64,000 nucleotides of DNA from Verrucomicrobiia bacterium (GTDB lineage Bacteria; Verrucomicrobiota; Verrucomicrobiia; Limisphaerales; JAEYXS01), in contig DASWYF010000022.1 of assembly GCA_036405135.1 (NCBI GenBank), positions 62,001-126,000 on the forward strand. The letters are read 5' to 3'. The notes under the pieces were generated by a model. The model ran no database searches and was not told the origin of the DNA. It saw only the letters and a list, made by a program, of their open reading frames with translations. This document shows, piece by piece, positions 8,054 through 39,244 of this stretch. Numbering within the stretch: the stretch's first letter is position 1; the number at the start of each line of letters is the position of its first letter. The position numbers were made by a program, and so were the translations under genes.

Positions 8054-9196
8054 CTACGAATCGTCTTGATGGCCCAGTTCTTTCCGGCGTTTCCATAACT
8101 CCTTGGGCTTGAAAATGCCTGCGGGGGTGATGATGCCGGTGATGAGGTCGGGAGGTGTCACGTCGAAGCCGGGGTTGCGGGCATGGCTGTCGGGGTTGCC
8201 GATGCGGACGTAAGTCCTCTCACCAACCTGTTTCGCGCCGCGCACTTTGCCCTTTGCACTTTGAGCGATGCCCCATGCGCCAAGAACTTCGCTTTCGTGA
8301 CGTTCTTCGATAGGGATGTCGAAACCAGAGCGCATGTCCCAATCAATGGTGGAAAGTGGAATGGCAACGTAGAAGGGGATTTTGTGACGCTTGGCCAGGA
8401 CGGCTTTCGTGTATGTGCCGATCTTGTTGGCGACTTCACCGGTGCGGCCGAGGGTGCGGTCGCTGCCCACGATGACCATGTCGATCTCGCCGCGTTGCAT
8501 GAGGTGACCGGCGGCGTTATCCGCGATGACGGAGTGGCTGATGCCTTGTTGCGAAAGTTCCCACGCGGTAAGCGAGGCGCCTTGGCAACGGGGACGCGTT
8601 TCATCGCAGAAGACGTGAAACTTTTTACCCTGTGCCTGCGCTTCATACATGGGGGCGGTGGCGGAGCCGATGTCTACGAAGGCGAGCCAGCCGGCGTTAC
8701 AATGGGTGAGCACGCGCATGCCTTCTTTGATCAAGGGCGCACCGAGTTTCCCGATGGCGTGGCAATGCTCCACATCGTCATCGGCGAAGTGATGGGCGGC
8801 GTGCAGGGCACGGGTCTGTTGCTCGGCCACAGTGGTGCCAGCGGCCATTTGCGCGCGGACATCGAGCATGGCGTTCACGGGATCGACCGCGGTGGGGCGC
8901 GCTTCTTTGAGGACGGTGAAGACTTCGTCCACGTGCTTTTGGAACTTGGCGAGGTCATTGCCTTTGAAGGCTCGGGCGCCTTGGGCGAGGCCGTAGGCGG
9001 CGGTGGCTCCGATGGCTCCAGCACCGCGCACGATCATGTCGCGAATGGCGACGGCGGTGTCGCGAAAGTTCCTGGTGTGAATAAGCTGGAACTCGTGAGG
9101 CAGGAGGCGTTGCTCGATGAGCACCACGGAGTTCTTTGATTCATCGAAGCCTACCGTCCGGTAGTGCTGCACCTTGCGGCCCGTGCGTACGTTCAT
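8054..9196 (-). CDS. mtnA: S-methyl-5-thioribose-1-phosphate isomerase
   Basis: A 380-residue protein with the methionine salvage isomerase signatures: RGAGAIGATAAYGLAQ (substrate binding), THCNAGWLAF with the catalytic Cys, and IADNAAGHLMQRGEID with the catalytic Asp, followed by VGSDR. It converts methylthioribose-1-phosphate to the ribulose form in the salvage of methylthioadenosine. The related eIF2B family shares the fold, but the Cys and Asp motifs favour MtnA. It follows a TPR gene by only 9 bp, and metF (methyl supply for methionine) lies just upstream in the opposite direction. Confidence 0.93.
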   Translation of the reverse strand: MNVRTGRKVQHYRTVGFDESKNSVVLIEQRLLPHEFQLIHTRNFRDTAVAIRDMIVRGAGAIGATAAYGLAQGARAFKGNDLAKFQKHVDEVFTVLKEARPTAVDPVNAMLDVRAQMAAGTTVAEQQTRALHAAHHFADDDVEHCHAIGKLGAPLIKEGMRVLTHCNAGWLAFVDIGSATAPMYEAQAQGKKFHVFCDETRPRCQGASLTAWELSQQGISHSVIADNAAGHLMQRGEIDMVIVGSDRTLGRTGEVANKIGTYTKAVLAKRHKIPFYVAIPLSTIDWDMRSGFDIPIEERHESEVLGAWGIAQSAKGKVRGAKQVGERTYVRIGNPDSHARNPGFDVTPPDLITGIITPAGIFKPKELWKRRKELGHQDDS

Positions 9197-9205
9197 GCGT
9201 TCAGA

Positions 9206-9631
9206 TTATTTGCCCGAAGATTTGCCGCCCTTGAGTTTCTTGATGCGTTCGCGCATGGGCTTGAAGAGGGGATGCTTGCGCAGTTCTTTCAAGTCTTCAT
9301 CACGGGAGAGCCAGTGGAAGTCGCGATAGCCGAGGTCCATGGCGTGGTCGAGGGTCTTGATGGCCTTCTCATAATCCTTCATGAGGGCGTAACTGCAGGC
9401 GAGGTTGTAGAAGACCAATGGATCTTCCGGTCGCAACTGGGCGAGCTGTTCGTCCACATGGAGGCCTTCGGTCACACGGCCGCGGGCGGTGTAGTCATCG
9501 CCCAAGATCTGGAGGGCTTCCTCGTATTGGGGATCGCGCCGGACAACACCTTCCAGAAAACCTATTTCGATGTCCAGGTCACGCCGTTGTTCGCGGGAGA
9601 GTTGCTTGGTCGTCGTGGTCTTTTTCGGCAT
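9206..9631 (-). CDS. Small TPR-repeat protein
   Basis: A 141-residue soluble protein with at least two tetratricopeptide repeats (for example VFYNLACSYALMKDYEKAIKTLDHA, written in part) between about residues 25 and 120, and a Lys-rich C-terminus. No export signal. It lies 9 bp upstream of mtnA on the same strand, so they are probably co-transcribed. TPRs mediate protein contacts; the partner is unknown. Confidence 0.75.
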   Translation of the reverse strand: MPKKTTTTKQLSREQRRDLDIEIGFLEGVVRRDPQYEEALQILGDDYTARGRVTEGLHVDEQLAQLRPEDPLVFYNLACSYALMKDYEKAIKTLDHAMDLGYRDFHWLSRDEDLKELRKHPLFKPMRERIKKLKGGKSSGK

Positions 9632-9788
9632 ACTACTTCACCGCCAATCAAGACGAGCTTGGGCCGTTCGTCAAGGGGTTGTGTGGAAGCTAGGTAGGGC
9701 ACGGTAGTCAGATCCAGGTGCTGGCCGAACCGGTATCGGGATGTGCAACATTCCGGACATTAGTGATCACTTCGTCGCAACCGGCCTT

Positions 9789-9809
9789 GCGCTTAACCCG
9801 GTTAAGCGC
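9789..9809. promoter_or_regulatory. 21-bp perfect palindrome in the metF leader (candidate operator)
   Basis: Arms GCGCTTAACC (9789-9798) and GGTTAAGCGC (9800-9809) are exact reverse complements around one central base. The site ends 15 bp before the metF start codon, where a repressor or an RNA hairpin could block ribosome access. No T tract follows, so it is not a terminator. The regulator is unknown. Confidence 0.45.
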
Positions 9810-9824
9810 ATAATAACCAGCACA

Positions 9825-10715
9825 ATGCAGTTGATACGGGACATCCATAAGGCGTGCGCCCAGGCGCAACGTCCGGCCATATCGTTCGAGTTCTTCCCAC
9901 CGAAAACGGCGGAAGGTGACGCGTCTCTCTTGGAGAAGACGATTCCCGAACTCATGTCCCTCCGCCCTGATTACTGCTCCGTCACCTACGGTGCAGGCGG
10001 CAGCACGCGCGACAAGACGCTGATGATTGTAGACCGCATCCAGCGCGAGCATAAGCTCACCGCCATGTCCCACCTCACCTGCGTGAACAGCACGAAGGAT
10101 GAACTGGCTGCTGTGTTGAAGCAGGCGAAAGATCTGGGCATTAAAAACATATTGGCCCTGCGCGGAGATCCTCCGGGCGGCACGGGCGGTTTCGTAAAGA
10201 CTGAGGGCGGCTTCGAGTTCAGCTACGAACTCGTGGAATTCATCCAGCAGATGAACGAATTCTGCATCGGCGTGGCCGGTTTTCCAGAAGGCCACATCGC
10301 TTGCAAGGAAGGCAAACAGGTTGATTGGCAACGCCTGAAGAACAAGATCGATAAAGGCGCGGACTTCGTTATCACCCAGTTGTTCTTCGATAATGCCGAT
10401 TTCTTTGAGTTCCGCGATCACCTCACCAAGCTCGGTGTGAAAGTGCCCATCATCCCCGGTATCATTCCGGTGATGAGCGGTTCGCAGATCAAGCGCTTCA
10501 CCGCGCTGTGCGGTGCGCAATTGCCTTCCAAGCTCGTCAACCGCCTCGACCAGATCGGCGATAACGACGAAGCGGCGAAGGAATACGGCATCGAATATGC
10601 CACAGAACAATGCCAGGAACTGTTGAAGAACGGTGTTCCCGGTATCCACTTCTACACCTTGAACAAGGCGGCTTCCACGATGCGCATCGTGAAGAATCTC
10701 AATTTGGCCAGATAA
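9825..10715 (+). CDS. metF: 5,10-methylenetetrahydrofolate reductase
   Basis: The ATG at 9825 gives a 296-residue protein beginning MQLIRDIHKA; the family block SFEFFPPKT follows at once, so the in-frame extension back to 9741 is unlikely. Other signatures are SVTYGAGGSTR (Glu/flavin region), LALRGDPP and a VITQLFFD strand. The enzyme makes 5-methyl-THF for methionine synthesis using FAD and NADH. It is divergent from the TPR-mtnA pair and carries a strong palindrome in its leader. A bidirectional terminator follows. Confidence 0.95.
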   Translation: MQLIRDIHKACAQAQRPAISFEFFPPKTAEGDASLLEKTIPELMSLRPDYCSVTYGAGGSTRDKTLMIVDRIQREHKLTAMSHLTCVNSTKDELAAVLKQAKDLGIKNILALRGDPPGGTGGFVKTEGGFEFSYELVEFIQQMNEFCIGVAGFPEGHIACKEGKQVDWQRLKNKIDKGADFVITQLFFDNADFFEFRDHLTKLGVKVPIIPGIIPVMSGSQIKRFTALCGAQLPSKLVNRLDQIGDNDEAAKEYGIEYATEQCQELLKNGVPGIHFYTLNKAASTMRIVKNLNLAR

Positions 10716-10780: not shown

Positions 10781-12001
10781 TTAGAAGCCGTAACCCACCG
10801 CGATGTTGAGTGAGTGGTTGAAGAATTTGTATGTACCGTCTGCAGACTGGCCGCCGATGGAGGGGGTGCTTCCGGTGATGGTACGCTTTGGCCCGGTGAT
10901 GATCTGATAAGAGACCGCCCAAGACCATTTCTCCAACTGACGTCCTATGCCGAGACTGCCCACGTGCAGATTGGTGTCAGGCGTCAGCGGGTTGAAATTC
11001 ACTGCAGAAGTGGAGTTGCCGCTGTAGAAGTAGCCGATGCTGGCGAAGTAGCCGTCCTTCAGCTTGCGTGTGATGCCGAACTCGTAGAGGAACGAGGATT
11101 GCCAGTTGAAGGCGAACGGAGTGTTGCCGGAAGATTTTTCAAATGTCACGGTGTTAAGTGAGTCCCAATCCGTCCAATCCACATTGAATTCAAAATTCCA
11201 GTCCGGCGTGGGGCGATAGGAAACGCCGCCCATGATGTATTGTGGGAAGGGTATGGTCGCCCGAGTGGTTTCCTCGGCAGTGTATGGCATCGCCACGGAA
11301 TGGCCGCGGAAGGTCATCTCCGACTTGGATTTGTAGTTTATACCGAACGCCAGCTTCTCAGTGGGCTGCCAACGGGCGGAAACCGTGTACCCATAGGCGA
11401 AATCTGTGCCTTTGAATTTGAACTCATCACCCGCCGTTGGCAGGAAGATGCCTTGGCGCAATTCCACGCGGCCATAATTCAAGGTCGGTCCGGCTGCGAT
11501 CGATAGCGAGGGAAGTGCCTGCCATGCCACCACTGGATTCACGGTGGTATACATCAGGCGACCTTCCAGCGCGAGCGTGCGAAAACCGCTGTCTTCCGGC
11601 CATTCGATGCCTAATCCATAAGGTGCATATGTTCCCAAGCCGAATGAGAGATCGCTCTCTTTTGGAGAGTGCACCAAATACATTTGCGGCACCGGTTGCA
11701 CCTCGAAGAGAGAGTGGGCTTTGCCGCCTGCGGGTGAGTGGTATGTTGAATTGACGGAGGTGATGTAGAATCCCAGTTGGGCTTGAGTGCCTTCAATCTG
11801 GGTGATGCCGGCAGGGTTGTAATACATCGCTGCCGGTGTATCTGCGGTGGCGGTGAACGCATTGCCACGGGCAATGGCCGCTGCATCCTGGTTGACGATC
11901 CGAAAACCGATCGCCTGGGTGTTTTGTACTGCTAACAGGCTGGTTGCGGCCAATGTCAGCAAACAGAGCGGGCGTGTGTTGGTTGGAGTTGGGGTCCGCA
12001 T
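10781..12001 (-). CDS. FadL/OmpP1/TodX-family outer-membrane transport protein
   Basis: A 406-residue protein with a signal peptide (about residues 12-31) and the family hallmark just after it: GFRIVNQDAAAIARGNAFTA with the NPAG turn (MYYNPAGITQIEG). The rest alternates polar and apolar residues as expected of a 14-strand barrel and ends in an aromatic residue (VGYGF). The family brings long-chain fatty acids or other hydrophobic compounds across the outer membrane. It is divergent from a signalling operon whose first gene resembles a fatty-acid methyl ester synthase, which may be chance. Confidence 0.88.
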   Translation of the reverse strand: MRTPTPTNTRPLCLLTLAATSLLAVQNTQAIGFRIVNQDAAAIARGNAFTATADTPAAMYYNPAGITQIEGTQAQLGFYITSVNSTYHSPAGGKAHSLFEVQPVPQMYLVHSPKESDLSFGLGTYAPYGLGIEWPEDSGFRTLALEGRLMYTTVNPVVAWQALPSLSIAAGPTLNYGRVELRQGIFLPTAGDEFKFKGTDFAYGYTVSARWQPTEKLAFGINYKSKSEMTFRGHSVAMPYTAEETTRATIPFPQYIMGGVSYRPTPDWNFEFNVDWTDWDSLNTVTFEKSSGNTPFAFNWQSSFLYEFGITRKLKDGYFASIGYFYSGNSTSAVNFNPLTPDTNLHVGSLGIGRQLEKWSWAVSYQIITGPKRTITGSTPSIGGQSADGTYKFFNHSLNIAVGYGF

Positions 12002-12336
12002 GATAGTTTTCTAGTAGACCGATGTCGCTCTTGTATGAAAGCAAAAAATCTTATTATCATCATTCTGTTCACCATAGAGCAAAATTTGACGATAAGTTCC
12101 TATGTTTTCAGTTAATGAAACACTTGGTCATCAACTCCTTTGTCTTTGTACCTGTTTGTGCGGAAATTTCTTTCAGTCAAAAAAAAGGTTGGTCAAAATA
12201 ATTTGCAAGTTCTTGTCTTGGAGAAGAAAAAACATTGTCCGGGGCCGAATGGTTCTGGTATCCATTTACCTATTCTTGAGGGGGAGGATTGGTGTGCTTT
12301 TTTATATCAACGGGCTAACCGTGGCGGACGTATCAA
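12002..12336. other. AT-rich divergent intergenic region
   Basis: This 335-bp stretch separates the divergent porin gene and the phc-like signalling operon. It is clearly richer in A+T than its surroundings, with A runs near 12180 and 12225. It must carry promoters for both directions, but I could not fix a convincing -35/-10 pair. No gene or stable hairpin was found. Confidence 0.6.
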
Positions 12337-13767
12337 ATGGAAAACGAAAATGTCATAACATCGCCTTCCCGAGATCGGGATAGCTTTATAGTCTGCCGAA
12401 ACAGCCAAGGCGCAGAAGTGCGTGCGACCCTCCTGCGCCTGACTCGCTATCTGGTTGTTTTCGAAGTCTATAACCCTTACAGCATCCTCCAGCTGTCCGA
12501 GGTGCTTTCTGATTTCCGGATCATTATCCGGGACCGGCTTGTGTACTCGGGCCGTGCTGTCGTCAGCAATCTGGTGAACACGGGCATCGTGCTCGTTTGT
12601 GAAACCACGCTTGATGAAGCGTGGGTGGACGTCGATTTCCTTGTTTCCAGCACTCAACCCAACCGGTTGCGTGATGAATTCAAGGATTTCATCACCGAAT
12701 GGAGCAAAAACCAGCGCGTCACGCCGGATTTCAAGGTCGTCGTCGCGGATATGCAGACCTTGTTGGCCGATCTGCGACGCTGGCTGGAGCAGGTGGAGCT
12801 GAGCATCCGCTCCGATCCCGGTGCAGACCGCCAGCAACGCGAGCGCGAAGTCATCGCCGAGCTGAGCAGCCCCATGTTACCCGTGGTGAATGATCTCTTT
12901 GTGCGGTTCGAGGACATCGCCCAGAAGATCGACACCGAGCTGCAACCAATTCACCGCACTTATGTGAAACGGCAGTTGCACCCGTTGCTGCTGTGCTCGC
13001 CGTTCATGTATCGTATTTACCAGAAGCCTTTGGGTTATGCTGGTGATTACGAGATGGTGAACATGATTCTGCGCGACCCGCATGAAGGCAGCTCGCTCTT
13101 CGCCAAGATCCTGAATGTCTACATCCTGAATCAGGCTCCTGCCGAAGCGCATCGCAACCGCGTCAAATACCTCACCCAACGTCTTGCTGAAGAAACCCGC
13201 CGCGTCACGCGCTTGGGCCGTCCTTGCCGGGTGCTGAATCTTGGCTGCGGTCCGGCCAAGGAGATCCACGATTTCCTGCAACAGGATGACATCTGTGACC
13301 GCGCGCAGTTGACGCTGCTGGATTTCAATGATGAAACACTCGAATCCACCGGCCAGAAGCTGAACGAGGTGAAGGCGCGTTATCGCCGCTTCACCGGCCT
13401 CCAGTTCACCAAGAAATCGGTGCATCAGATCCTGAAAGAGGGCGGCAAGCCGATGTCTCTGGGCCAGCAATATGACTTCATCTATTGCGCCGGGTTGTTC
13501 GATTACCTCAGCGACCGTATCTGCAAGCGTCTCATGACGATCTTCTACGAACAGCTTGCGCCCGGTGGTTTGGTGGTGGCCACGAATGTGGATTCATGCA
13601 ATCCGATCAAGAACATCATGGAGTACATCTTTGAATGGCACTTGGTGTATCGCGATGACAAGCAGCTCGGCACGCTGATCCCCGATGAAAGCACTCAAGG
13701 GATGTATTCTGTGAAGGCTGATCACACCGGTGCCAATATTTTCGTGGAAGTCCGCAAGCCTCTCTGA
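12337..13767 (+). CDS. PhcB-like protein: PilZ-like N-terminus plus SAM methyltransferase
   Basis: A 476-residue protein. Residues about 20-110 look like a PilZ-type beta domain. Residues 205-245 hold the block LHPLLLCSPFMYRIYQKPLG. A class I methyltransferase fold begins at about 295, with the SAM loop VLNLGCGP (299-306), the acidic strand end LLDFND (327-332), and a YDFIYCAGLFDYL strand near 380-391. This layout matches proteins annotated as 3-hydroxypalmitate methyl ester (extracellular factor) synthases, the PhcB family. It is followed by three kinase/receiver genes as in the phcBSRQ operon. Inference: it makes a fatty-acid methyl ester signal; substrate not shown. Confidence 0.75.
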   Translation: MENENVITSPSRDRDSFIVCRNSQGAEVRATLLRLTRYLVVFEVYNPYSILQLSEVLSDFRIIIRDRLVYSGRAVVSNLVNTGIVLVCETTLDEAWVDVDFLVSSTQPNRLRDEFKDFITEWSKNQRVTPDFKVVVADMQTLLADLRRWLEQVELSIRSDPGADRQQREREVIAELSSPMLPVVNDLFVRFEDIAQKIDTELQPIHRTYVKRQLHPLLLCSPFMYRIYQKPLGYAGDYEMVNMILRDPHEGSSLFAKILNVYILNQAPAEAHRNRVKYLTQRLAEETRRVTRLGRPCRVLNLGCGPAKEIHDFLQQDDICDRAQLTLLDFNDETLESTGQKLNEVKARYRRFTGLQFTKKSVHQILKEGGKPMSLGQQYDFIYCAGLFDYLSDRICKRLMTIFYEQLAPGGLVVATNVDSCNPIKNIMEYIFEWHLVYRDDKQLGTLIPDESTQGMYSVKADHTGANIFVEVRKPL

Positions 13768-13769
13768 TC

Positions 13770-16463
13770 GTGAACCAGCAGGACGTCAAAACAGCCTTTG
13801 CCGAATACGACAAGAAGGTGCGGATCAGCAATTCGCGCCTCGGAGCTGTTTGGGCGATGATCCTGATGCCGGCTGGCTTCACGCTCGATTATCTGGTCTA
13901 TCCGCAACTGGTCTGGGAGTTCCTGTGGCTGCGCATACTGTGCTCCATCTACGTCGGCATCGTCCGTTCCGCCTTCAATACGGAGTTCGGTGATCGAAAC
14001 TACCGCGTGTTGGGGATGATTTGGTACATGCTCCCGGCGTTTTTCATCGCGGGTATGATTTACGCCTCAGATGATGTCACTTCGCCTTATTACGCGGGTT
14101 TAAACATCGTGTTGATCGGTGCCGGATTGTTCCTCCCTTGGACCTATTTTGAAAATCTCCTCGCCTGGCTTTTGGTGACGGCCATGTATGCGGTGGCGGT
14201 GCTCATGATCGGCACTACGCATGATTTCCCACTGGTGTTTAATAACCTCTACTTCCTCATCCTGACCGGCCTCATCGTCGTCGTTTCCAGCTATTACACC
14301 GGGGATACTCGTTACCGTGAATTCGCCCTGCGCTTCGAACTGGACCGCAATAAACAGGTCTTGGAGGATGCGAACAAAAAGCTGAAGGAGCTGGATGAGG
14401 TGAAGACCCGTTTCTTCGCCAATATCAGCCACGAACTGCGTACACCGCTGACATTGCTTTTGGCTCCCATCGAAACCATGCGCCGCCAGAAGGCGCATAA
14501 CTTCGATGAACAAACTCGTGAATGGCTGTCTACGATGGAAGCCAACGGTCTGCGCCTTCTGAAACTCATCAATGACCTTTTGGACCTCGTGAAGCTCGAG
14601 TCCGGTCACATGGATGTGCGGCGGGACTCAGTGAATTTGGAAGACTTTCTTAAAGGCCTGCGCAGCTCCGTTCAGAAAATGGCGGATGATAAGCGCGTCC
14701 ATATCTCCGCCCAAGTGGATCCCTCGGTCACCGCGATTGTGACGGATCGGGACAAGCTGGAAAAAATTCTCCTCAACTTGGTTTTCAATGCCATCAAGTT
14801 CACTCCGGCCAAAGGGCAGGTCATCATAAAAGCAAGGAAAGACGGAGAATTTACCCAGATAGAGGTGGTGGATACCGGTGTTGGTATTGCCGAAGCCAAT
14901 ATTCCTTACCTGTTCACCCGTTTCTGGCAGGCGGATACCTCAGCACAAAGAAAGTATCAGGGAACCGGTATCGGTCTTGCTTTGGTGAAAGAATTAGTTG
15001 AAGTTCAGGGCGGATCAGTTGCCGTTGCCAGTAAGGAAGGCGTGGGTACCACCATGGCGGTGCGTCTCCCGGCAGCTGTGGGCAGGGAGGAAAAAACTGT
15101 ACCTGTGTCTCCACAGATGCCTGTCATTACACCAGAACCTGTCGTGTCCCAAGACGCACAGCCGCCTGATCCTTCGCCCCAAGGCGAATGGCTCCAAGGT
15201 CTGTATCGTCGTGCGGAACTTTTCCCCTCGCTCACCGCGCTCAAGGACAGCATCCGTCCCTTGCAACCCATCGGCGTGAACGGCCAACGGGCCAAGGTGC
15301 TCATCGCGGATGATGAGCCCGACATGCTGCGCTACCTGAAGTCCGAACTGGTCGCCGAGTACGAAGTCCTGGAAGCCGCCGACGGCCGCCAGGCCATCGC
15401 ACTCGCCGCCCAGTTCCAGCCGGACATCATTCTGTGCGACATGATGATGCCGGAGATGGATGGCGTGCAGGTCTGCAAGGAACTCCGCACCAAGAGCACC
15501 ACGCAGAACATCCCCGTCTTGCTGCTCACCGCCCGCGCGGATGAAGATACGAAACTGAATGCGCTCTCCCACGGTGCGAGTGATTTCCTCACCAAGCCGT
15601 TTTCCGTGACCGAATTGCATGTGCGCCTGCGCAACCTCGTCGGTGCTTATCAGATGCAGCGCAAGCTCGCCCGTCAAAATCAGGTGCTTGAGGCCACGCT
15701 GGAGCAGTTGAAAGAGACTGAGACGCAGCTCGTGCAGACGGAGAAGATGGCCTCCCTCGGCCGTATGAGCGCGGGCATCATCCACGAGATCAACAACCCG
15801 CTGAACTACGCCAAAACCGGCCTGTTCACGCTGCGCAAAAAATCGAAGTACGTTCCGGAAAAAGAACTGGAAGATTTCAACGAGGTGCTCAAGGACGTTG
15901 AAGACGGTGTCAATCGCGTGAAGGACATCGTCTCCGACCTCAGGACCTTCACCCATCCGCGTGAAGACAAGCTGGATGAAGTGGAGATCGGCAAACCGGT
16001 AGCCGCTGCCTTGCGTTTTCTTTCGGGCGAGCTGAAAGATCATGTGGAACTGCATCAGAGCTTCAACGCCCAGCAGATCGTCATGGGCAATGAAAGCACC
16101 TTGCTGCAGTTGCTCATGAACCTGCTGCAGAATTCGCTCGACGCTCTCAAGGGCCGGGGCGAACGGGGGGACAAGCCCGCCATCTGGATCGAGGAAAAGG
16201 TCACCGAATACCATTACCATCTCATCCTGCGGGACAATGGCCCCGGCATCCCAAGCCACGTCATCGACAAGATTTTCGACCCGTTTTTCACTACGAAAGA
16301 CGTCGGGCAGGGCATGGGCCTCGGCCTGAGCATCTGCTATCGCATCATGCAGCAACATGAAGGCCGCATACAGGTGAATACTGAAACCGGCAAGTTCACC
16401 GAATTTATACTCGAATTCCCATTGAAAGCTGTTAAGAAAGAAGCCCTAGAGGCCGTATCCTGA
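13770..16463 (+). CDS. Membrane hybrid sensor kinase (kinase-receiver-kinase), PhcS-like
   Basis: The GTG start lies 2 bp after the previous stop. The 897-residue protein has about six membrane helices (25-175), a coiled linker, kinase 1 with H221 (ISHELRTPL), an N-box (NLVFNAIKF, 336-344) and G-boxes DTGVGIAE and [10 protein letters not shown] receiver follows (508-622), with acidic pocket ADDEPD and phospho-acceptor D557. A second kinase has H672 (IIHEINNPL), N-box [13 protein letters not shown] and G-boxes DNGPGIP and GMGLGLSI. All key residues are present in both kinases. Two complete kinase cores in one chain are unusual. Likely the membrane receptor of the signal made by the upstream gene. 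Confidence 0.85.
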
Positions 16464-16472
16464 TTTACATAT

Positions 16473-17714
16473 ATGCAGAATCTGTACGACTACAAAAAAT
16501 ACGCGGTCCTTTATGTAGACGACGAGGAGAAGTCCCTGAAGTATTTCTCCCGCGCCTTCGCCGATGAATTTCGCATTTTGACAGCCCCTAATGCAGCAGA
16601 AGGTCTGCAGATCTTTGAGGCGAACCGCGACTCCATCGCCGTGTTGATGACGGATCAGCGCATGCCCGGTGAAAAAGGTGTGCAGCTTCTGGAGAAGGCC
16701 CGTGCGATCAGCCCGCGTGTGATCCGTATTCTGGCCACCGCTTATTCCGATCTCGATGCCGCCATCGACGCTGTGAATACCGGTGCCATCTACAAATACG
16801 TCACCAAACCGTGGGACATCCCACAGCTCGAAACGACTTTGAAGCGTGGTATCGAATTCTTCATCGTCCAGCACGAGCGTGACCAGTTGATGCGCGAGAA
16901 ACTTTCCGTGCTGCACAACATGATGATCACGGACCGCGTCGTCAGCCTCGGCGTGATGGCAGCGGGCTTGAGCCATCATCTGCGCAATCCGCTGGTGGCC
17001 GTGCGCACCTTCCTCGATCTGGCTCCGGCCAAGTTGCAGGAGGAGAAGATGGCGATGGATGAACTGCGCAACCCGAACTTCTGGCGTGATTTCTACGATC
17101 ACGTCCGCGTGCAGGTGGAGCGCATCTCCGCCCAGCTCGACAATCTCGGCCTGCTCAACGCCAACAGCGGCGCGCTCCAAAGCGTGAACCTGTCTGAGGT
17201 GGTCATCGAAGCGCTCAAGACGTTGGAGCCTGTTCTGACGAGCCGCAAGATCGCCGTGACGAACAACGTGCCGGTGAATCTGCCGGCGATGAACACCGAG
17301 CGTCCGCAACTGACGCGCATGCTCCAGTTGCTGATGCAGGAGACGATCGCCCAGCTCTCGGCTGGCGGTCACATTACCTTGTCCGCGGAGTCTCAGGAAA
17401 ATGGCGTGAAGCTCGTCGTCGAGGATGATGGTCCCGGCTTGCCTGCCGAAGCCTTGCGTCGGGTGTTCGATCCGTTTTTTGCCCGCAGCGGTCATCCGGA
17501 AGATTTCGGCATCAACCTGATGGCGTTTTATTTCTTGGCTTATCACTTGGGTGGTCGCGTTCGCGCGGAATCCCGCTCGCCCAAGGGGGCCAAGTTCACG
17601 CTCACATTCCCGTTGGAAAAATCTTCCGTGCCTGTGGGGAATGATGATCGCGATTTCATCAACAAGGTGCTTTTGAACGACGCCTTGTGGGAGAAGCTAC
17701 TGTCTGGCGAATAA
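16473..17714 (+). CDS. Receiver + degenerate histidine-kinase protein, PhcR-like
   Basis: A 413-residue soluble protein. The receiver (10-125) has acidic pocket VDDEE, phospho-acceptor D61 (MTDQRMPG) and K112 in VTKPW. The kinase-like part keeps a His (SHHLRNPL, H168) but the neighbouring acidic residue expected at +1 is His; the N-box Asn residues are missing (MLQLLMQETIAQL, about 283-295); G1 is kept (DDGPGLP) while G2 is replaced by FGINLM. ATP binding and autokinase activity are therefore doubtful. PhcR of Ralstonia is also a receiver with a kinase-type output domain. It starts 9 bp after the hybrid kinase gene. Confidence 0.85.
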   Translation: MQNLYDYKKYAVLYVDDEEKSLKYFSRAFADEFRILTAPNAAEGLQIFEANRDSIAVLMTDQRMPGEKGVQLLEKARAISPRVIRILATAYSDLDAAIDAVNTGAIYKYVTKPWDIPQLETTLKRGIEFFIVQHERDQLMREKLSVLHNMMITDRVVSLGVMAAGLSHHLRNPLVAVRTFLDLAPAKLQEEKMAMDELRNPNFWRDFYDHVRVQVERISAQLDNLGLLNANSGALQSVNLSEVVIEALKTLEPVLTSRKIAVTNNVPVNLPAMNTERPQLTRMLQLLMQETIAQLSAGGHITLSAESQENGVKLVVEDDGPGLPAEALRRVFDPFFARSGHPEDFGINLMAFYFLAYHLGGRVRAESRSPKGAKFTLTFPLEKSSVPVGNDDRDFINKVLLNDALWEKLLSGE

Positions 17715-17735
17715 ACCGGCTCAAACGCACCGATC

Positions 17736-19037
17736 ATGAAGAGCACGAACAATAACGCAGAGAGGCCTGTGACGCATGAAGCACAGGCGGATATGGCAGG
17801 CGGAGCCAAGCACCGTCGTACGTTGTTGATCGTGGACGATGATGAGAGCCCCCGACAAGCCCTCTGCATGGTGTTCGGAGATGATTATGAGCTGCTCATC
17901 GCGGAAAATGGGGAACGAGCTCTGGAACTGGCACGCAATCATGTGGTGGACACCGCCATCGTGGACATCCGTATGCCGGGCGTTTCTGGTATTGATGTTC
18001 TGGCGGGGTTGAAGCAGATGGATATGGCCATCGAGGTCATCATCCTTACCGCTTATCAGACGCTGGAAACTGCGCGGCAGGCCTTGCGCCTAGGTGCGCG
18101 GGATTACCTCGTGAAACCATTCGGTGTGGATGAGATTCGCAAGGTCGTCTCCGCCGCGATGGAGCATCGTAACGCCGCCGGTCGTATCAAAGAAACAGCC
18201 CGCCTCCTCAATTCCCTGCAGGAAGAGATCGAGGGCCAGCGAAAGACCGTTCGTTCCTCGCAGATGAAAGGCGAACTCTACGCCGGCATCATTCATGATC
18301 TTAACAGTCCGTTGACTGTCGTTTCAGGCATGGCCGAGATGATGGGGGAACGGCTGAGCGGGGTGACCTTCGTGAACGGCGAACAGCTGGCAGCCATGCG
18401 GAAGGATGTGGCCCAGCTTTCAAAGCATGTGGAACGTTGCTTGGAAATCTCCCGCCGTTACATGGATCTCTTCCGCCAGCGTGCCCACAGCGAGAAGGAA
18501 GCCTACCTCGGCTCAGTGCTGAAGAATGTTGATGAACTTCTTTCGTTCCATCCGGCCGTCAAGAAGCACGAACTGGAGATCGTGAACAGTGCAGGCAATG
18601 TGATGCTACCGGTGAACGCCCTCGATCTGGAGCAGGTGCTCATCAATCTCATCCATAACGCACTTACTTGCACGGCCCGTCATCATCATGTGTGGGTTCA
18701 TGCGCGCATGGAGAATGAAAACTTGTCTGCCGACAAACTCGAATCCAGCCATGGTGCCAAAGTGGTGAATGAGGAGCGGTTTCTGAACAAAGGTCCGTTT
18801 GTTGTCATCGAAGTGCGTGACAATGGCGTAGGTATACCAGAAGCCGTATTAGGCCGTATTTTCCAGCCGTATTTCTCCGTACGCGAGGCGGGCCAGGGCA
18901 CCGGCCTAGGCCTTTCCGTCGTGCGCCATCTCATCTCTGAGACGCAAGCCTTGCTACGAGTGGAGAGCCATTATGGCCATGGCGCGATCTTTACGCTGAC
19001 CATTCCCTGCACCCCGGCTTCCCTGCTGCCGGAGTGA
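17736..19037 (+). CDS. Receiver + histidine-kinase protein, PhcQ-like
   Basis: A 433-residue soluble protein. A 25-residue polar leader is followed by a receiver (28-145) with VDDDES, phospho-acceptor D77 (IVDIRMPG) and K127 (LVKPF). A kinase core has H187 (GIIHDLNSPL), N-box VLINLIHNAL (N304, N308) and G-boxes VRDNGVGIP and GQGTGLGLSVV, so it looks active. It lacks any DNA-binding domain. As last gene of the set it matches PhcQ in position and architecture class. Output could be phosphotransfer to a regulator elsewhere. Confidence 0.83.
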   Translation: MKSTNNNAERPVTHEAQADMAGGAKHRRTLLIVDDDESPRQALCMVFGDDYELLIAENGERALELARNHVVDTAIVDIRMPGVSGIDVLAGLKQMDMAIEVIILTAYQTLETARQALRLGARDYLVKPFGVDEIRKVVSAAMEHRNAAGRIKETARLLNSLQEEIEGQRKTVRSSQMKGELYAGIIHDLNSPLTVVSGMAEMMGERLSGVTFVNGEQLAAMRKDVAQLSKHVERCLEISRRYMDLFRQRAHSEKEAYLGSVLKNVDELLSFHPAVKKHELEIVNSAGNVMLPVNALDLEQVLINLIHNALTCTARHHHVWVHARMENENLSADKLESSHGAKVVNEERFLNKGPFVVIEVRDNGVGIPEAVLGRIFQPYFSVREAGQGTGLGLSVVRHLISETQALLRVESHYGHGAIFTLTIPCTPASLLPE

Positions 19038-25396: not shown

Positions 25397-27190
25397 TCAT
25401 CTGCTACCTGAAGCACGCCGATTATTACTCGGATCGCTGATTAGCGGTGTTTGGGAACGGTAGAGTGCCAGTCTGGCTTCCATGACTGCGCGCTCTTCGT
25501 TTGAAATGTTCACCGCGCGTTTCAACGCAAGCTCTTGGTAGCGAATTGCGGAGTCATATTTTCCATAACGCGAATTCACCGCCGCTGCTGCTTCCAGATG
25601 ATAGGGTTCGGATTCTTTCAGCACCTCCATAGCCTTGCTGACAATCATCAGTGGTTCCTCATTAGAACGAGAATTGGATTTGCTTGTGGCGGCCAATTCC
25701 ATGGCGCGTTCTGACATAATATCGAGATCGATGATTGCCAAGTCTTTGCGTCCAATTTTTTGGTGGAGTTTACTGCGCCTCCAATAAACAAGCATACTAT
25801 GTCCACCCGTGGGGTCATTTAGGATGGAGTTTGAGTAGTCGGCCAATGCTTTGTCGTATTCCTTTCGATCCTCATAAATCCGACCTCGATATTCGTAAGC
25901 CAACGCAATGGCTTCTTCTTTTGGGTGACTATATGTTGAATAATCAATATCCCGGTCATCGATTATCACGGAATAGTCGGCTATGGCCTCATCCATTTTA
26001 CCCAAGTAGGAATAATACAAAGCGCGGTTGTGTCGTGAACTGTAATACTTGGGATCAAGTTCCAGTCTTCGTGTATGGTCAGCAATCGACTTCTCGTAAT
26101 CCTTCAAATCTGCGTAAAGACTGGCCCGGCTGAAATAAACATCCTTGAAGGCATTCCACCGGCCAATCCCTTGGTCGAGCAAGGCGATGGATCTGCCGTA
26201 GGCGTCCAATGCTTCATCATATTTTTTCTCCTGCTGAAGTTTCCAGCCAAGATCATACAGTTCCCGTGCTTCTGTGGATTGTGGCGTAACTTGTGCTGTA
26301 TTTTTACCCGATATGGCTGGTCTTCTTATGGAAGTTTTGGCATTGATAGTGTTGCTCGTTACAACAGAGTTTTCTCGGATAATTGCCTTCGAGTTGCGGG
26401 TTTCAATCCTATGATTTTTGGGCGATGGTCTGTCAGCGAAATAAAGGCCTAACCCCACAACGCACAGTGCAATGCCAATGGTCACGGTTTTTAGCTTCGC
26501 CGTAGTGAACCCAGTCAGCAACCCTCCCAAAAGCGAAGCAGTGCTTGCAGCATGGGCTGCTTTTAGTGCGGCTGCTTGGACTGATCCTTCAACGCCGGGT
26601 GGAACTGCTTGTGCCGAATGCTCCAACAAGAAAGCACCCAAAAGGCCCGTCGTGCAGGCAACCTTCTTGGCCTCCAGCAAAGACCTGAGTTTTTCCAATG
26701 CCCGGTTTACCCGCATACGTGCGGCATCTTCTGTGACACCCAGCGTCATTCCGACTTGCACAAAGGATTTTCCCTGAAAGAACCGCAGGAGCAACGCGAT
26801 GCGTTCCTGCTCCGGGAGTTCGCTCATGGCTTCATCCAGATGTGGAGCGATGTCGTCCCAAGGCGTTTCTACGGTGGGTTGCGGTTGAATCATTTGGGCG
26901 GCCTCCAGTTCGCGGTGCTGACGGCGATACTCAGTCCGCCAATACTTGGCCGTCATCAGGCAGGCGGTTTGGTGGAGCCAGCTCGCGAGTGCTGCTTCGG
27001 AACGGATCGTCCGGGCCTTATCAGCCAGCAGGCAAAATACGGATTGCGCGATCTCTTCTGCGATATGTGGCTTGCTGGTGCGGCGTAGCGCCACGGAATA
27101 AACCAGTGGCAGATGACGCTTCACCAACGCGGAAAAAGCTGCCTCCGACCGGTTATCCACATAATCCCGAAGTAGAGCTGTATCTTCCAT
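25397..27190 (-). CDS. ECF sigma factor fused to a membrane anchor and TPR domain
   Basis: From the ATG at 27190 (MEDTALLRDYVDNRSEAAF) the protein has 597 residues. Residues 1-90 are sigma region 2 and 120-175 region 4 (LPEQERIALLLRF, then a helix-turn-helix around VTEDAARMRVNRALEKL). A linker precedes one membrane helix (234-252, VTIGIALCVVGLGLYF). The remaining 340 residues carry TPR repeats (about 300-580) and would lie in the periplasm. Sigma factors with long C-terminal extensions are frequent in Pedosphaera-type genomes. Inference: extracytoplasmic TPR sensing controls the attached sigma part directly, without a separate anti-sigma factor. Confidence 0.85.
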   Translation of the reverse strand: MEDTALLRDYVDNRSEAAFSALVKRHLPLVYSVALRRTSKPHIAEEIAQSVFCLLADKARTIRSEAALASWLHQTACLMTAKYWRTEYRRQHRELEAAQMIQPQPTVETPWDDIAPHLDEAMSELPEQERIALLLRFFQGKSFVQVGMTLGVTEDAARMRVNRALEKLRSLLEAKKVACTTGLLGAFLLEHSAQAVPPGVEGSVQAAALKAAHAASTASLLGGLLTGFTTAKLKTVTIGIALCVVGLGLYFADRPSPKNHRIETRNSKAIIRENSVVTSNTINAKTSIRRPAISGKNTAQVTPQSTEARELYDLGWKLQQEKKYDEALDAYGRSIALLDQGIGRWNAFKDVYFSRASLYADLKDYEKSIADHTRRLELDPKYYSSRHNRALYYSYLGKMDEAIADYSVIIDDRDIDYSTYSHPKEEAIALAYEYRGRIYEDRKEYDKALADYSNSILNDPTGGHSMLVYWRRSKLHQKIGRKDLAIIDLDIMSERAMELAATSKSNSRSNEEPLMIVSKAMEVLKESEPYHLEAAAAVNSRYGKYDSAIRYQELALKRAVNISNEERAVMEARLALYRSQTPLISDPSNNRRASGSR

Positions 27191-27367
27191 CTTGCCTGAT
27201 AAGTTCCCGCGGACGGACAAAGCGAACAGGAAACTGCAAAAGATTTTGCTGCTCTCCCGAGATTTCAGCAATCACATAGAAAGCGATCTGGATATGGGGT
27301 GATTGCCTTTTCTTTTGAGGGAAAAGCCTGCCGTTAAGATGCCATCTCAGTGATGGTAGTTTCCCGG

Positions 27368-32111: not shown

Positions 32112-32903
32112 ATGTTTGGGTATTTTAAACGTCGTCGTCGCGAACAACTGAAGGCACAGCCTTTCCCCACGGCGTGGCAGGACATCCTGCTGCGCCGTTT
32201 TCCTTTTTACGAACGGCTGGACGCCGCAGGCCGCGAAGCCCTGGAAGACCTCATCCAAGTCTTTCTGGGCGAGAAAGTCTTTGAAGGCTGTGGTGGCATG
32301 GAGATCACGGATGAGGTGCGGCTGGTTATCGCAGCCCAAGCCTGCCTGCTTCTGCTGAATCGCGATACGGATTGCTATCCCAAGCTGAAGACCATTCTCG
32401 TGTATCCCTCTGGCTATTTTGCCAAAGGCTCAGGAAATCACGGTGATCAGCAGGTGGAACACGAGGGGCAGGGCAGGTTGGGTGAATCATGGAATGCCGG
32501 TGTAGTGGTGCTGGCTTGGGATGCCACCCTGCATGGTGCGGCCAATGCCAATGATGGGCACAATCTGGTTTACCACGAGTTCGCCCATCAACTGGATCAG
32601 GAAGACGGTGCGGCAGATGGGGCGCCTTCATTGCCGGGAGATACCGTTCGCGAGCGATACGGGCGGCATCTGGCGTGGGCACGTATTCTCGGTGAGGAAT
32701 ATCGTGAGTTGCAGGAAGCTATCGAACGTGGGCGCAAGACGGTGATGGATGAATATGGTGGGAGCAACCCGGCGGAGTTTTTTGCGGTCGCCTCGGAATG
32801 TTTCTTTGAAAAGCCGCGACAGATGAGGAAGAATCACCCCGCACTCTACGAGGAACTGGAGAAGTTTTATCAACAGGACCCGGAGACGTACCTAGGGAAA
32901 TAG
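32112..32903 (+). CDS. mtfA: MtfA-type zinc peptidase (M90)
   Basis: A 263-residue cytoplasmic protein with the gluzincin motif H155-E-F-A-H159 in YHEFAHQLDQ and the family start RRRREQLKAQPFP. A downstream E in NPAEFFAVASECFFEKP is the probable third zinc ligand. MtfA of E. coli is an aminopeptidase whose activity responds to the glucose repressor Mlc; no Mlc is seen here. It starts 38 bp after rho and ends 1 bp before the WYL regulator, so these two form a unit directly before the proteasome locus. Confidence 0.9.
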   Translation: MFGYFKRRRREQLKAQPFPTAWQDILLRRFPFYERLDAAGREALEDLIQVFLGEKVFEGCGGMEITDEVRLVIAAQACLLLLNRDTDCYPKLKTILVYPSGYFAKGSGNHGDQQVEHEGQGRLGESWNAGVVVLAWDATLHGAANANDGHNLVYHEFAHQLDQEDGAADGAPSLPGDTVRERYGRHLAWARILGEEYRELQEAIERGRKTVMDEYGGSNPAEFFAVASECFFEKPRQMRKNHPALYEELEKFYQQDPETYLGK

Positions 32904-32904
32904 C

Positions 32905-33921
32905 ATGGCCAAGCGCTCCACAAAAAAGAAAGCACCGGCACCGCGTTCTGTACCCACCACGCGTCCTCCGCTGGACCGCATGATGCGCATCCATCAGGAG
33001 ATCCAGTTGGGTAAGTATCCGAACGGACCAGGCTTAGCGCGAGAACTGGAAGTGAGTGCTAAATCTGTCCAGCGCGATCTGGAGTTCATGCGCGACCGGA
33101 TGAATCTGCCGCTGGCTTACGATAAGGGTCGCAACGGTTATTATTACACGGAAGAAGTCGGTGCATTTCCCACGCTGCAAATAACCGAGGGTGAATTGTT
33201 CGCGTTGCTGGTGGCGGAAAAAGCATTGCAACAATATCGCGGCACGAATTTCGAGCGACCTTTGGTTTCGGCTTTCAAGAAGATGGCGTCTTCGCTACCA
33301 GACACGGTTTCATTGAATCTTGCAGATTGGGAGCAGACCATTTCTTTCCGCACCAGTGCTGAGCCGATCCTGAATCTAGAAGTGTTCGAGTTGTTGAGCA
33401 AAGCAGCGGCGGAGCGGAAGCAGCTCAAGCTGGAGTATCGCAAAGGCGGCCAGCGCAATACGGAGGAGCGTGTGGTGGACCCGTATCATCTGGCGAATAT
33501 CAATGGTGAATGGTTCCTCTTCGCCTTCGATCATTTGCGCAATGACCTGCGGACGTTTGCGCCCGCACGTATCGTAAAAGCGGAGCCGACGGGCAAGAAG
33601 TTCGCGCGACCGGAGAAGTTCTCTTTGGAGAAACGGTTGCGTGATAGCTTTGGCGTTCATTCCGGGCAGAAGGAGCAAACGGTGATCATCCGTTTCGATG
33701 AGTTTGCGGCGGATTACATCCGGGAGAAACGCTGGCATCCTTCACAGCAGCTTAAAGAGTTGGAAGGTGGCGGCGCGGAATTGACGATGAAGCTATCGAG
33801 CCTTATCGAGGTGCAACGATGGATCCTTGGTTGGGGGGGACATGCGCAAGCGGTGGAGCCGAAGGAACTGATTGAATCCGTGAAGAATGCCGTGACCGCG
33901 CTGGGTAAGAGTTTGGAGTAA
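32905..33921 (+). CDS. WYL-domain transcriptional regulator (PafBC-type)
   Basis: A 338-residue protein: a basic leader, a winged HTH at about 30-85 (GLARELEVSAKSVQRDLEFMRD), then a WYL domain (about 165-235) with YHLANINGEWFLFAFDHL and TFAPARI, and a WCX C-terminal part (about 255-330). WYL proteins bind nucleic-acid ligands; in actinobacteria PafB and PafC are WYL regulators encoded next to the proteasome ligase and control the DNA-damage response. Its place before the proteasome locus makes the same link plausible here. Confidence 0.88.
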   Translation: MAKRSTKKKAPAPRSVPTTRPPLDRMMRIHQEIQLGKYPNGPGLARELEVSAKSVQRDLEFMRDRMNLPLAYDKGRNGYYYTEEVGAFPTLQITEGELFALLVAEKALQQYRGTNFERPLVSAFKKMASSLPDTVSLNLADWEQTISFRTSAEPILNLEVFELLSKAAAERKQLKLEYRKGGQRNTEERVVDPYHLANINGEWFLFAFDHLRNDLRTFAPARIVKAEPTGKKFARPEKFSLEKRLRDSFGVHSGQKEQTVIIRFDEFAADYIREKRWHPSQQLKELEGGGAELTMKLSSLIEVQRWILGWGGHAQAVEPKELIESVKNAVTALGKSLE

Positions 33922-33922
33922 G

Positions 33923-34070
33923 GTGCTGCCGGATTCTAGCCGGCAGTTTGGGTGACGACGCAATTTGAGACGCGCTGAACTCTCAACAGCGAGAGGAAAT
34001 CCGACAGGATAAGGCAGAGAAAACAGGCTTCGTCGGATGCGCTCAACTGCCGGCTGGAATCCGGCAGCAC
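33923..34070. repeat. 148-bp element with 26-bp terminal inverted repeats
   Basis: The ends at 33923-33948 and 34045-34070 are reverse complements at 25 of 26 positions (one T/C difference). Each end is itself a hairpin (CTGCCGG...CCGGCAG). The inner part holds another short inverted pair (ATCCGAC / GTCGGAT). It carries no gene, like a small non-autonomous element, or two facing copies of a dispersed palindrome. It lies between the WYL regulator and the proteasomal ATPase. Confidence 0.8.
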
Positions 34071-34143
34071 GGGCGCTATGGCTAACTATCTCACTGGTTT
34101 CACTCCCGGTTGCGTTCCCGGCAAAACAGAGTAGTGTTCTGTT

Positions 34144-35865
34144 ATGGCTGGGCAAAAGAAGCAGCCGGGTACGCCAACGCCAACCCCGTCTCCCAAGCCG
34201 GAAACACCCGTTCCCGGCGATTCTACGTCGCTTCCGCTGAACGACCTTTTGAGTCGCGAAGACCTTGATTCTCTTTCCGCTCTCCAATTGCTGGACCTCA
34301 TCGCTACGAAGATGCCGGCACGGAGCACAGTGTTGCTAGACTTAGTCTATCTGCGTGATCGCATCACGATGATGGAGGAGATGAACGATCAGGCGCGTGA
34401 AGTCATCGAGAAGCTGGATCAAGCGGTGGAGAAATTACGTGCGCCAGCTCTGCGCATCGGAACTTTTCTGGCGGCGTTGAAAGATGATCAAGCGCACGTC
34501 TGTGTCGGGGGAACGGATTACGTGTGCAAAATAGATCCCGATCTGTCGCTCGCTAGTTTGCAACCTGGCCAACGCGTCCTGTGTAACGAAGCTTTTGCGG
34601 TGACGCGCAGTCTTGGTTTCGATCAACACGGGCCGATCGTGCGGGTGGATGAAACGCTGTCTGATGGACGCCTGCGTATAGGACAAGAATCTGGGGTGAT
34701 GCCGCTGGTGGTGCAGCGTTCGGCGCTCTTGCAGAAGGAGAAGCTCAAGCCCGGCATGGAAGTGCGGTTGGATGCGAATCAACGCATCGCACTGGAGGTC
34801 ATCGGACATGGCAAGCGAGTGGATCGCACCCTGGATGTCGTAGGTGAAGTGCCTTGGGCAGCGATCGGTGGACAGGCGGAAGCGGTGAAATCCATCCGCG
34901 ACGCGATCGAGCTGCCGTTCTTGCATCGTGATCTCTATAAGCGTTTTGATCATCGCATCCCGAAAGGGTTTCTTCTGCATGGGCCGCCCGGTTGTGGCAA
35001 GACGCTGCTCGGCAAAGCGACCGCTTACAATCTACGCCAGCAATTGAAGCAGCAGACGGGTGTGGATCATCCTGAGTTCTTCCTGCATGTGAAAGGGCCG
35101 GAATTGCTCAACATGTGGGTGGGTGAATCCGAGCGACAGGTGCGCGATCTTTTTCAGCAATGCCGCGAACGCGCGGCTGAGGGCTATCTCGCATTCCTGT
35201 TCATGGATGAGGCGGAATCGCTGCTAGGGGTGCGTCATGGTGGACGGTTCAATTCCATGTCCAGCACGCTCGTGCCGATGTTCTGTGCGGAGATGGATGG
35301 GCTGGAAGCCCTCGCGAATGTGGTGATCATTTTGGCATCGAATCGTGCAGATTTGATTGATCCGGCGATTCTTAGGCCCGGTCGCGTGGATCGGAAAATC
35401 AAAGTGGCGCGACCGGATAAGGAAGGCGCGCGGGCGATCTACCAAATTTATCTGCGCGATACGTTGCCGTTGGCAGAGCCGGGGGCTGAGTTGGCCAAGC
35501 GCATGGCGGATACGCATTACGCGAAGACGGATGAGAATGCGTTTCTCGAAGTGAATTATCGCAGTGGTCGCAAAGAGACGTTTTATCGGGGTGACTTTGC
35601 GAGCGGGGCGATCATTGCGGCGATCGTGGAGCGGGCGAAGGCGGTGGCCATCCAGCGTTCTATTGCAAATGGAGCGGAGTCGCCAATCACGTATGGAGAT
35701 TTGCTGGCGTCGTTGAAGCAAGAGTATGTGGAAAGCGGCCTGTTCCCGTCGAACGATATGACGGAGGATTGGTTAAAGCTCACGGATCTGGAGCCGGATA
35801 ATGTGGCACGGCTCACGCCGATACGACCACGCCAGACGACGGGGTATGCGGGGAAGATTATCTAA
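34144..35865 (+). CDS. arc: Proteasome-activating AAA+ ATPase (ARC/Mpa)
   Basis: A 573-residue protein: Pro-rich leader (1-30), coiled coil (about 62-98) that in Mpa binds the modifier, OB-type interdomain (about 103-225), and one AAA+ module with Walker A GPPGCGKT (280-287), pore-loop region MWVGESE (324-330), Walker B FLFMDEAES (351-359), sensor N400 and the RPGRVDRK arginine fingers (411-418). It should unfold modified proteins into the PrcBA core. The C-terminus reads TGYAGKII and lacks the penultimate Tyr of the gate-opening tail in Mpa/ARC. It is bounded by two inverted-repeat elements. Confidence 0.93.
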   Translation: MAGQKKQPGTPTPTPSPKPETPVPGDSTSLPLNDLLSREDLDSLSALQLLDLIATKMPARSTVLLDLVYLRDRITMMEEMNDQAREVIEKLDQAVEKLRAPALRIGTFLAALKDDQAHVCVGGTDYVCKIDPDLSLASLQPGQRVLCNEAFAVTRSLGFDQHGPIVRVDETLSDGRLRIGQESGVMPLVVQRSALLQKEKLKPGMEVRLDANQRIALEVIGHGKRVDRTLDVVGEVPWAAIGGQAEAVKSIRDAIELPFLHRDLYKRFDHRIPKGFLLHGPPGCGKTLLGKATAYNLRQQLKQQTGVDHPEFFLHVKGPELLNMWVGESERQVRDLFQQCRERAAEGYLAFLFMDEAESLLGVRHGGRFNSMSSTLVPMFCAEMDGLEALANVVIILASNRADLIDPAILRPGRVDRKIKVARPDKEGARAIYQIYLRDTLPLAEPGAELAKRMADTHYAKTDENAFLEVNYRSGRKETFYRGDFASGAIIAAIVERAKAVAIQRSIANGAESPITYGDLLASLKQEYVESGLFPSNDMTEDWLKLTDLEPDNVARLTPIRPRQTTGYAGKII

Positions 35866-35866
35866 T

Positions 35867-36019
35867 CCGGTAGGGCGAGACTCTGTCGAGCTGTTGCCAG
35901 ATAGAGGCGTATTCGCCAGTCAGATAATTTGAAAGTTTAACTTGTTGCCTGAGCATCGTTACAGGCTATCGGGCGCACAAAGGTTTGGCATGGGCTCGAG
36001 AGGACTCTCGCCCTACCGG
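35867..36019. repeat. 153-bp element with 14-bp terminal inverted repeats
   Basis: Ends CCGGTAGGGCGAGA (35867-35880) and TCTCGCCCTACCGG (36006-36019) are exact reverse complements, with imperfect similarity continuing inward (TCGAGC on both sides). No gene inside. It starts 1 bp after the ATPase stop and ends at the dop start region. Its sequence differs from the element upstream of the ATPase. Confidence 0.75.
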
Positions 36020-36030
36020 TGATAGTAGAT

Positions 36031-37548: not shown

Positions 37549-37551
37549 GAT

Positions 37552-37725: not shown

Positions 37726-37731
37726 ACTGAC

Positions 37732-39239: not shown

Positions 39240-39244
39240 GTCCT

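Follow-up and report, generated by a model that had tools for sequence, protein, structure and literature searches.

A probable Phc-type lipid-signalling operon with a linked FadL porin in Verrucomicrobiota

Introduction

The proteins encoded by the Ralstonia phcBSRQ quorum-sensing operon have well-defined sizes, of 464-468 aa for PhcB, 368-374 aa for PhcR and 336-337 aa for PhcQ (PMC8578825). The starts of phcB and phcS lie 1417 nt apart, as derived from mutation coordinates, and residues R22 of PhcB and R154 of PhcQ, both sites of adaptive mutation, are kept across Ralstonia, Cupriavidus and Paraburkholderia (PMC6989110). The phospho-acceptor of PhcS is H230 (PMC11960443), and PhcQ has been found to bind PhcA in Ralstonia (PMC13320629). 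In Cupriavidus, phcA is located away from the phcBSRQ genes (Rmet_2977 versus Rmet_2949-52; PMC2864759). A survey published in 2023, which covered Proteobacteria only, described the phc gene cluster as confined to the Betaproteobacteria, with a limited distribution there (PMC10653808). In a different type of signalling, FadL of Sinorhizobium fredii takes up long-chain acyl-homoserine lactone (AHL) signals (PMC9938287).

Here we analyse a locus on a 64,000-nt stretch of DNA from a Verrucomicrobiia bacterium (hereafter, the window), which had been annotated as a phcBSRQ-like operon outside the proteobacteria. Verrucomicrobiota are a phylum of bacteria that dwell in soil and water. A search of the open-access literature yielded no report of a lipid autoinducer system in this phylum, no paper linking PhcB or FadL to its signalling, and none joining Verrucomicrobiota, quorum sensing, histidine kinases and FadL.

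Results

Organisation of the locus

The initial annotation had described four adjacent genes with gaps of 2, 9 and 21 bp, and four codirectional open reading frames, here called MT, HK1, HK2 and HK3, were found exactly at those positions (Table 1). No terminator-like site was detected in the three intergenic gaps, and the GC content of the operon genes equals that of the window. An unrelated coaE gene begins 52 bp downstream of HK3. The FadL-type porin that had been reported next door in the opposite direction was also recovered, with a Pfam Toluene_X (PF03349) match of 134.2 bits over residues 23-358, well above the gathering score of 29.7. The 335 bp separating FadL and MT have a GC content of 38%, versus 55% for the window, and are probably a regulatory region.

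Table 1. Features of the locus; positions are those of the window unless another locus (L number) is named
Feature	Position	Strand	Basis and remarks
MT, PhcB-like SAM methyltransferase	12337-13767	+	476 aa; ORF, Pfam, AlphaFold model, P. graminis alignment
HK1, PhcS-like membrane kinase, hybrid form	13770-16463	+	897 aa, GTG start; ORF, Pfam, motifs
HK2, receiver and degenerate kinase (predicted pseudokinase), PhcQ/PhcR-like	16473-17714	+	413 aa; Pfam, orthologs, receiver tree, model
HK3, receiver and intact histidine kinase, predicted accessory	17736-19037	+	433 aa; Pfam, receiver tree
FadL/OmpP1-type outer-membrane porin for hydrophobic compounds	10781-12001	-	Pfam; divergent from operon
AT-rich intergenic stretch between divergent FadL and MT	12002-12336	.	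Base composition
SDR example, L033	13391-14218	-	
SDR example, L042	8709-9542	-	
SDR example, L136	849-1676	+	
SDR, further examples			About 8 more loci

An MtnA-like gene and a MTHFR gene (metF) of methionine and SAM metabolism adjoin FadL (window 8054-10715). A SAM-supply link through these methionine-cycle genes was considered and dropped, because they are not part of the locus in relatives.

Further away, the window carries a Pup-proteasome locus on the forward strand (32112-40657), with a proteasomal ATPase (34144-35865), a proteasome subunit (37732-38505) and two proteins of the Pup-ligase/Dop type (36019-37548 and 39245-40657), preceded by genes for a WYL/WCX regulator and an M90 peptidase. 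A single 624-aa protein joining a sigma-70-family factor (regions 2 and 4) to a long tail of TPR repeats is encoded at 25397-27271 on the reverse strand, and a 670-aa glutaminase fused to a cyclic-nucleotide-binding domain at 57906-59918 on the forward strand.

MT and the kinases form a conserved module to which FadL is often linked

A lack of co-occurrence in related genomes would have counted against the initial annotation, but the genes do co-occur: kinase genes (HK1, HK2 or HK3) adjoin MT in 91 of 94 dereplicated loci. The other recurrent families around MT in this set were FadL (51 loci), a short-chain dehydrogenase/reductase (SDR; 12) and a mixed group of response regulators (9). Among 58 genomes of the same order, MT was present in 33 (one weak match left out); 29 genomes carried both MT and HK2, 4 MT only, 2 HK2 only and 23 neither (Fisher p = 4.7e-10). 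When genomes were drawn evenly across the phylum, MT was found in 22 of 388, each time as a single match, and HK1 directly followed it in nine of the ten phylum-wide loci examined, the exception being the very divergent L196, with no kinase gene at that place. A search of genome contigs yielded at least 575 relatives, the best 80 of which are mostly named Verrucomicrobiota, including Prosthecobacter, Roseibacillus, Pelagicoccus, Pedosphaera and metagenome-assembled genomes (MAGs), together with a small branch of MAGs labelled FCPU426. The MT-HK1-HK2 arrangement is a conserved module, far beyond chance, which recurs across the order and the phylum.

Neither a PhcA-like output gene nor any other conserved regulator was found near MT in the neighbourhoods of the 94 loci. 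A LuxR-type response regulator upstream of MT was discarded as a part of the module, since the nine loci concerned hold a mixed family and the feature is not general. In five loci with Pelagicoccus-like or Spartobacteria/Methylacidiphilales labels (L096, L098, L102, and L108 and L111 of the cultured strains Pelagicoccus mobilis and DG1235, respectively), where no nearby FadL was found, an ORF of 358-403 aa lies immediately upstream of MT and is weakly similar to the window kinases.

Linkage of FadL, defined as a position within 4 kb upstream of MT or directly after HK2, was assessed in the 83 dereplicated loci for which 2.5 kb or more of upstream sequence was available. FadL was linked in 49 of them: upstream on the same strand in 27, divergent as in the window in 19 and downstream in 3. 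The genome to which the window belongs is 5.8 Mb in size and has just two FadL genes, so that linkage by chance is roughly estimated at 0.4%. The linked porins belong to several separate FadL lineages and occur in different arrangements; therefore, the linkage has been maintained or re-formed, and its repetition argues for a functional tie between FadL and the module. This linkage is not obligatory, as 34 of the 83 loci have no nearby FadL. In about 11 loci an SDR resembling 3-oxoacyl-ACP reductases accompanies FadL upstream, in most cases directly upstream and in the same direction, so that sdr-fadL-MT-HK1-HK2 looks like one operon (Table 1).

The methyltransferase

The first gene had been annotated as encoding a PilZ-like/SAM methyltransferase. 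Pfam places a class I methyltransferase domain at residues 297-420, in agreement with the second part of this description. The PilZ label was not confirmed, as no PilZ match was obtained with Pfam in 12 members of the MT family, although a beta domain of six strands is indeed present at the N-terminus (residues 17-92) of the AlphaFold model (pLDDT 85.8), followed by a helical domain (108-290) and the class I fold (297-473). Near-invariant residues are found both in the core (C304, G305, D329, Y383, C384, G386, D389 and Y390) and in the helical region, which contains the motif KPLGYAGDY (230-238). In the MAG contigs L056 and L062, and also in L061 and L112, MT is split across two reading frames, which suggests sequencing errors or decaying copies.

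A search of PDB sequences gave no convincing relative. The best structural match of the MT model was 3ocj of Bordetella parapertussis, a protein of unknown function (Z 18.7, 17% identity), and the remaining matches were mostly class I enzymes acting on small molecules of many kinds; therefore, the substrate of MT cannot be assigned from its fold. A closer relative is encoded in Paraburkholderia graminis, whose MT is 40% identical to the window MT over 96% of the window protein, with 46% identity in the N-terminal beta domain and 36% in the helical domain.

These comparisons bear on the possibility that the locus encodes an intracellular relay, in which MT would modify a protein (as in CheR-like carboxyl methylation of the sensor) or a cofactor and so tune the kinases, with FadL serving the uptake of a sensed nutrient. 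The variety of small-molecule methyltransferases among the structural neighbours is compatible with such a role, and all 12 MT family members gave weak matches to CheR (best 9e-5). FadL proteins, moreover, also import nutrients, such as fatty acids and hydrocarbons, and pollutants. However, the window MT scores far below the Pfam cut-off for CheR, the locus has no conserved methyl-accepting partner, and the homology to the P. graminis enzyme, which has a phc-type gene context (see below), extends over the full length, with the N-terminal beta and helical domains included. We consider this explanation unlikely.

A probable phc operon in Paraburkholderia graminis related to the module

Our comparison with characterised Phc proteins was made through the P. 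graminis proteins together with published lengths and residue positions. On the P. graminis plasmid pPHS1_P, the operon CUJ91_RS33675-RS33690 encodes an MT of 468 aa, a histidine kinase (HK) of 445 aa and two response regulators, RR1 and RR2, of 134 and 344 aa. This MT was the only full-length relative among the plasmids searched, and no relative was found in viral contigs. Published positions could be followed from one system to the next: PhcB R22 corresponds to R22 of the P. graminis MT and to R29 of the window MT, an arginine in 83 of 101 MT sequences; PhcQ R154 approximately to R157 of RR2, which aligns with R155 of HK2, an arginine in all 81 sequences; and PhcS H230 approximately to H233 of the P. 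graminis HK. The starts of the first two genes are separated by 1408 nt in P. graminis and by 1433 nt in the window. Given the spacing, the lengths, which fit those of PhcB and PhcQ, and the residues R22, R157 and H233, the P. graminis operon is very probably phc. No FadL gene was present in its annotated 12 kb flanks.

In an unrooted tree, four MTs of Verrucomicrobiota form a group with the P. graminis MT nested among them (UFBoot 100, SH-aLRT 96). These nearest relatives come from L198-L201, loci of other Verrucomicrobiota families that are also the closest to phcBSRQ in composition. A position of the window MT outside the PhcB clade would have counted against the annotation; the protein groups with an MT from a betaproteobacterium, one whose gene context is of the phc type.

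The same tree could be read in another way, namely that P. graminis imported its operon from Verrucomicrobiota and that the likeness to Ralstonia phcBSRQ reflects convergent assembly of common parts. Its MT lies inside the Verrucomicrobiota part of the tree, and the operon is on a conjugative plasmid, with no second plasmid copy found. This seems rather improbable to us, since the lengths and the three residue positions agree with the published Ralstonia values, Paraburkholderia is stated to have PhcB and PhcQ homologs carrying the two arginines (PMC6989110), and the long end branch of the P. graminis MT (1.46) speaks against a recent import.

The membrane kinase and the receiver proteins

Directly downstream of MT stands a membrane sensor kinase of the PhcS type, HK1. 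The kinase-receiver-kinase layout given in the initial annotation was reproduced by Pfam, with a MASE8 domain (40-191), a HisKA/HATPase pair, a receiver (510-620) and a second HisKA/HATPase pair. The motifs of both kinases are intact, with the H-box histidines at 219 and 670. The MASE8 score was 21.7 bits in the protein scan and 26.5 bits in the genome scan, against a cut-off of 26.2; the P. graminis sensor is also MASE8-like, by a weak match. The proposed equivalence of HK1 with PhcS is consistent with the membrane kinase and this shared input domain, but the HK-REC block of HK1 is additional. In L052, L053, L055, L057, L059 and L130, HK1 is shorter, at about 450-510 aa (453-509 aa in relatives such as L055, L057 and L059), and consists of a membrane region and one kinase, as do PhcS and the P. 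graminis sensor. At least six changes between the short and hybrid forms are needed on the MT tree, so the internal block has been gained or lost frequently.

HK2 and HK3 had been annotated as two receiver-kinase proteins, and Pfam detects a receiver, a HisKA and a HATPase domain in each, but the kinase half of HK2 is degenerate. The receiver aspartate D61 does not vary among the 80 HK2 orthologs compared. In the kinase half, the H-box histidine survives in just 52 of them, the acid following it and the N-box asparagines have been lost, and a GINLM-like motif stands in place of the G2 box. The receiver, helical and ATPase-like parts are still visible in the AlphaFold model (pLDDT 78). As judged from its motifs, HK2 is thus a conserved pseudokinase, with an invariant receiver, a degenerate active site and a retained fold. 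In HK3, by contrast to HK2, the N-box asparagines and the glycine-rich box are kept throughout, together with most other motifs.

The suggestion that HK2 and HK3 are, in this order, PhcR (REC-HK) and PhcQ (REC) had to be abandoned. The receivers of HK1, HK2 and HK3 form three separate groups in the receiver tree, and those of RR1 and RR2 both fall into the HK2 group (SH-aLRT 97). HK3, also tried as PhcR and rejected on the basis of its separate lineage, is carried by a minority of loci and missing from many; by phylogeny it is a counterpart of neither PhcR nor PhcQ, and is best described as an unrelated accessory. The alignment of RR2 to HK2 covers residues 13-272 and continues past the receiver. 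Whereas the window has one HK2-type protein, L198-L201 have two each, the number to be expected of phcR plus phcQ, one with an unrecognisable, PhcQ-like C-terminal half and the other with a kinase-like half; the PhcQ-like protein is up to 52% identical to RR2 over 155 residues. A possible match between the degenerate G2 box of HK2 and PhcR residues taken from a docking paper (PMC9102662) was too weak to be used.

A further reading takes the locus for an ordinary two-component cluster of the LvrAB type, in which a hybrid kinase is paired with a hybrid response regulator, and the adjoining MT for an unrelated gene. This is very improbable: HK1 does match the LvrA model over residues 190-883, and LvrB is the best PDB match of the HK2 model, but the scores (314.6 of 1200 bits for LvrA and 63.1 of 500 bits for LvrB) do not reach the NCBIfam cut-offs, MT is conserved in the module as strongly as the kinases, and LvrA carries a PAS domain instead of MASE8, with no methyltransferase mentioned in the Lvr paper.

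Discussion

We conclude that the operon is probably of the Phc type, a variant in another phylum of the lipid-signalling system known from Betaproteobacteria. The initial proposal of a phcBSRQ-like operon outside the proteobacteria stands as regards gene order, the shared parts in P. graminis and the residue matches; the roles assigned to HK2 and HK3 had to be revised, HK1 has an additional HK-REC block that PhcS is not described to have, and the PilZ label was not confirmed. Some observations weigh against a Phc-type operon: characterised Phc proteins are reached by way of P. graminis and published residue positions, HK1 is larger than PhcS, the substrate of MT cannot be read from its sequence, 34 of the 83 loci have no nearby FadL, one distant MT, that of L196, has no adjoining kinase gene, and a PhcA-like output gene is not conserved nearby. 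Equivalence of the window operon to Ralstonia phc is what we infer from the sequence comparisons.

In a Phc-type system of this kind, MT would most likely methylate the carboxyl group of a fatty acid that carries a hydroxyl group or some other modification, producing a hydrophobic signal, presumably a fatty-acid methyl ester. FadL would let this signal, whether made by the cell itself or by others, through the outer membrane, and the MASE8 kinase HK1 would sense it in the membrane. Phosphate may then flow from the first kinase of HK1 to its internal receiver and second kinase and on to HK2, which, as a receiver with a dead kinase, would act by protein-protein contact on a regulator encoded elsewhere, in the way that PhcQ acts on PhcA, and HK3 may be a lineage-specific extra relay arm. 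These results suggest that the Verrucomicrobiota carrying the module make and sense a lipid signal, and the conserved operon with its linked porin predicts a signal in the form of a methylated fatty acid, together with a sensor and a route of uptake.

A broader scenario is also conceivable, although the balance is against it, in which Phc-type lipid quorum sensing would be a widespread Verrucomicrobiota system with a dedicated FadL, and betaproteobacterial phc a derived, transferred branch where the pseudokinase receiver decayed to PhcQ and PhcR. Mutation of PhcQ R154 alters quorum-sensing dynamics in Ralstonia, and the conserved operon suggests that this is an ancient conserved position and that the uncharacterised C-terminal half of PhcQ is the remnant of a histidine kinase.

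Among the known systems, Leptospira LvrA/LvrB resembles the locus in having a hybrid kinase followed by a REC-kinase hybrid response regulator. It differs in its PAS input, neither a methyltransferase nor FadL has been described with it, and the kinase of LvrB is active while that of HK2 is degenerate. Uptake of long-chain AHLs in Sinorhizobium offers a parallel for a FadL porin with a possible role in lipid signalling; there, FadL serves signalling of the LuxI/LuxR type, whereas here it is genetically linked to a module with a PhcB-like enzyme and a MASE8 kinase. In Ralstonia and Cupriavidus phcBSRQ, as in the window, a methyltransferase of PhcB size comes first, followed by a membrane sensor kinase and then by receiver proteins that lack DNA-binding domains. 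The Verrucomicrobiota loci, from a different phylum, depart from this plan in that the sensor is in most cases a hybrid that carries an additional HK-REC block, an HK2-type pseudokinase takes the place of PhcR/PhcQ, HK3 is an optional unrelated REC-kinase, FadL and sometimes SDR are linked, and no PhcA is seen nearby. The P. graminis operon differs from that of the window in its single-kinase sensor and in receiver proteins without a recognisable kinase domain, but shares with it the 40% identical MT, a MASE8-like sensor and the order of the genes, and both of its receivers are of the HK2 type.
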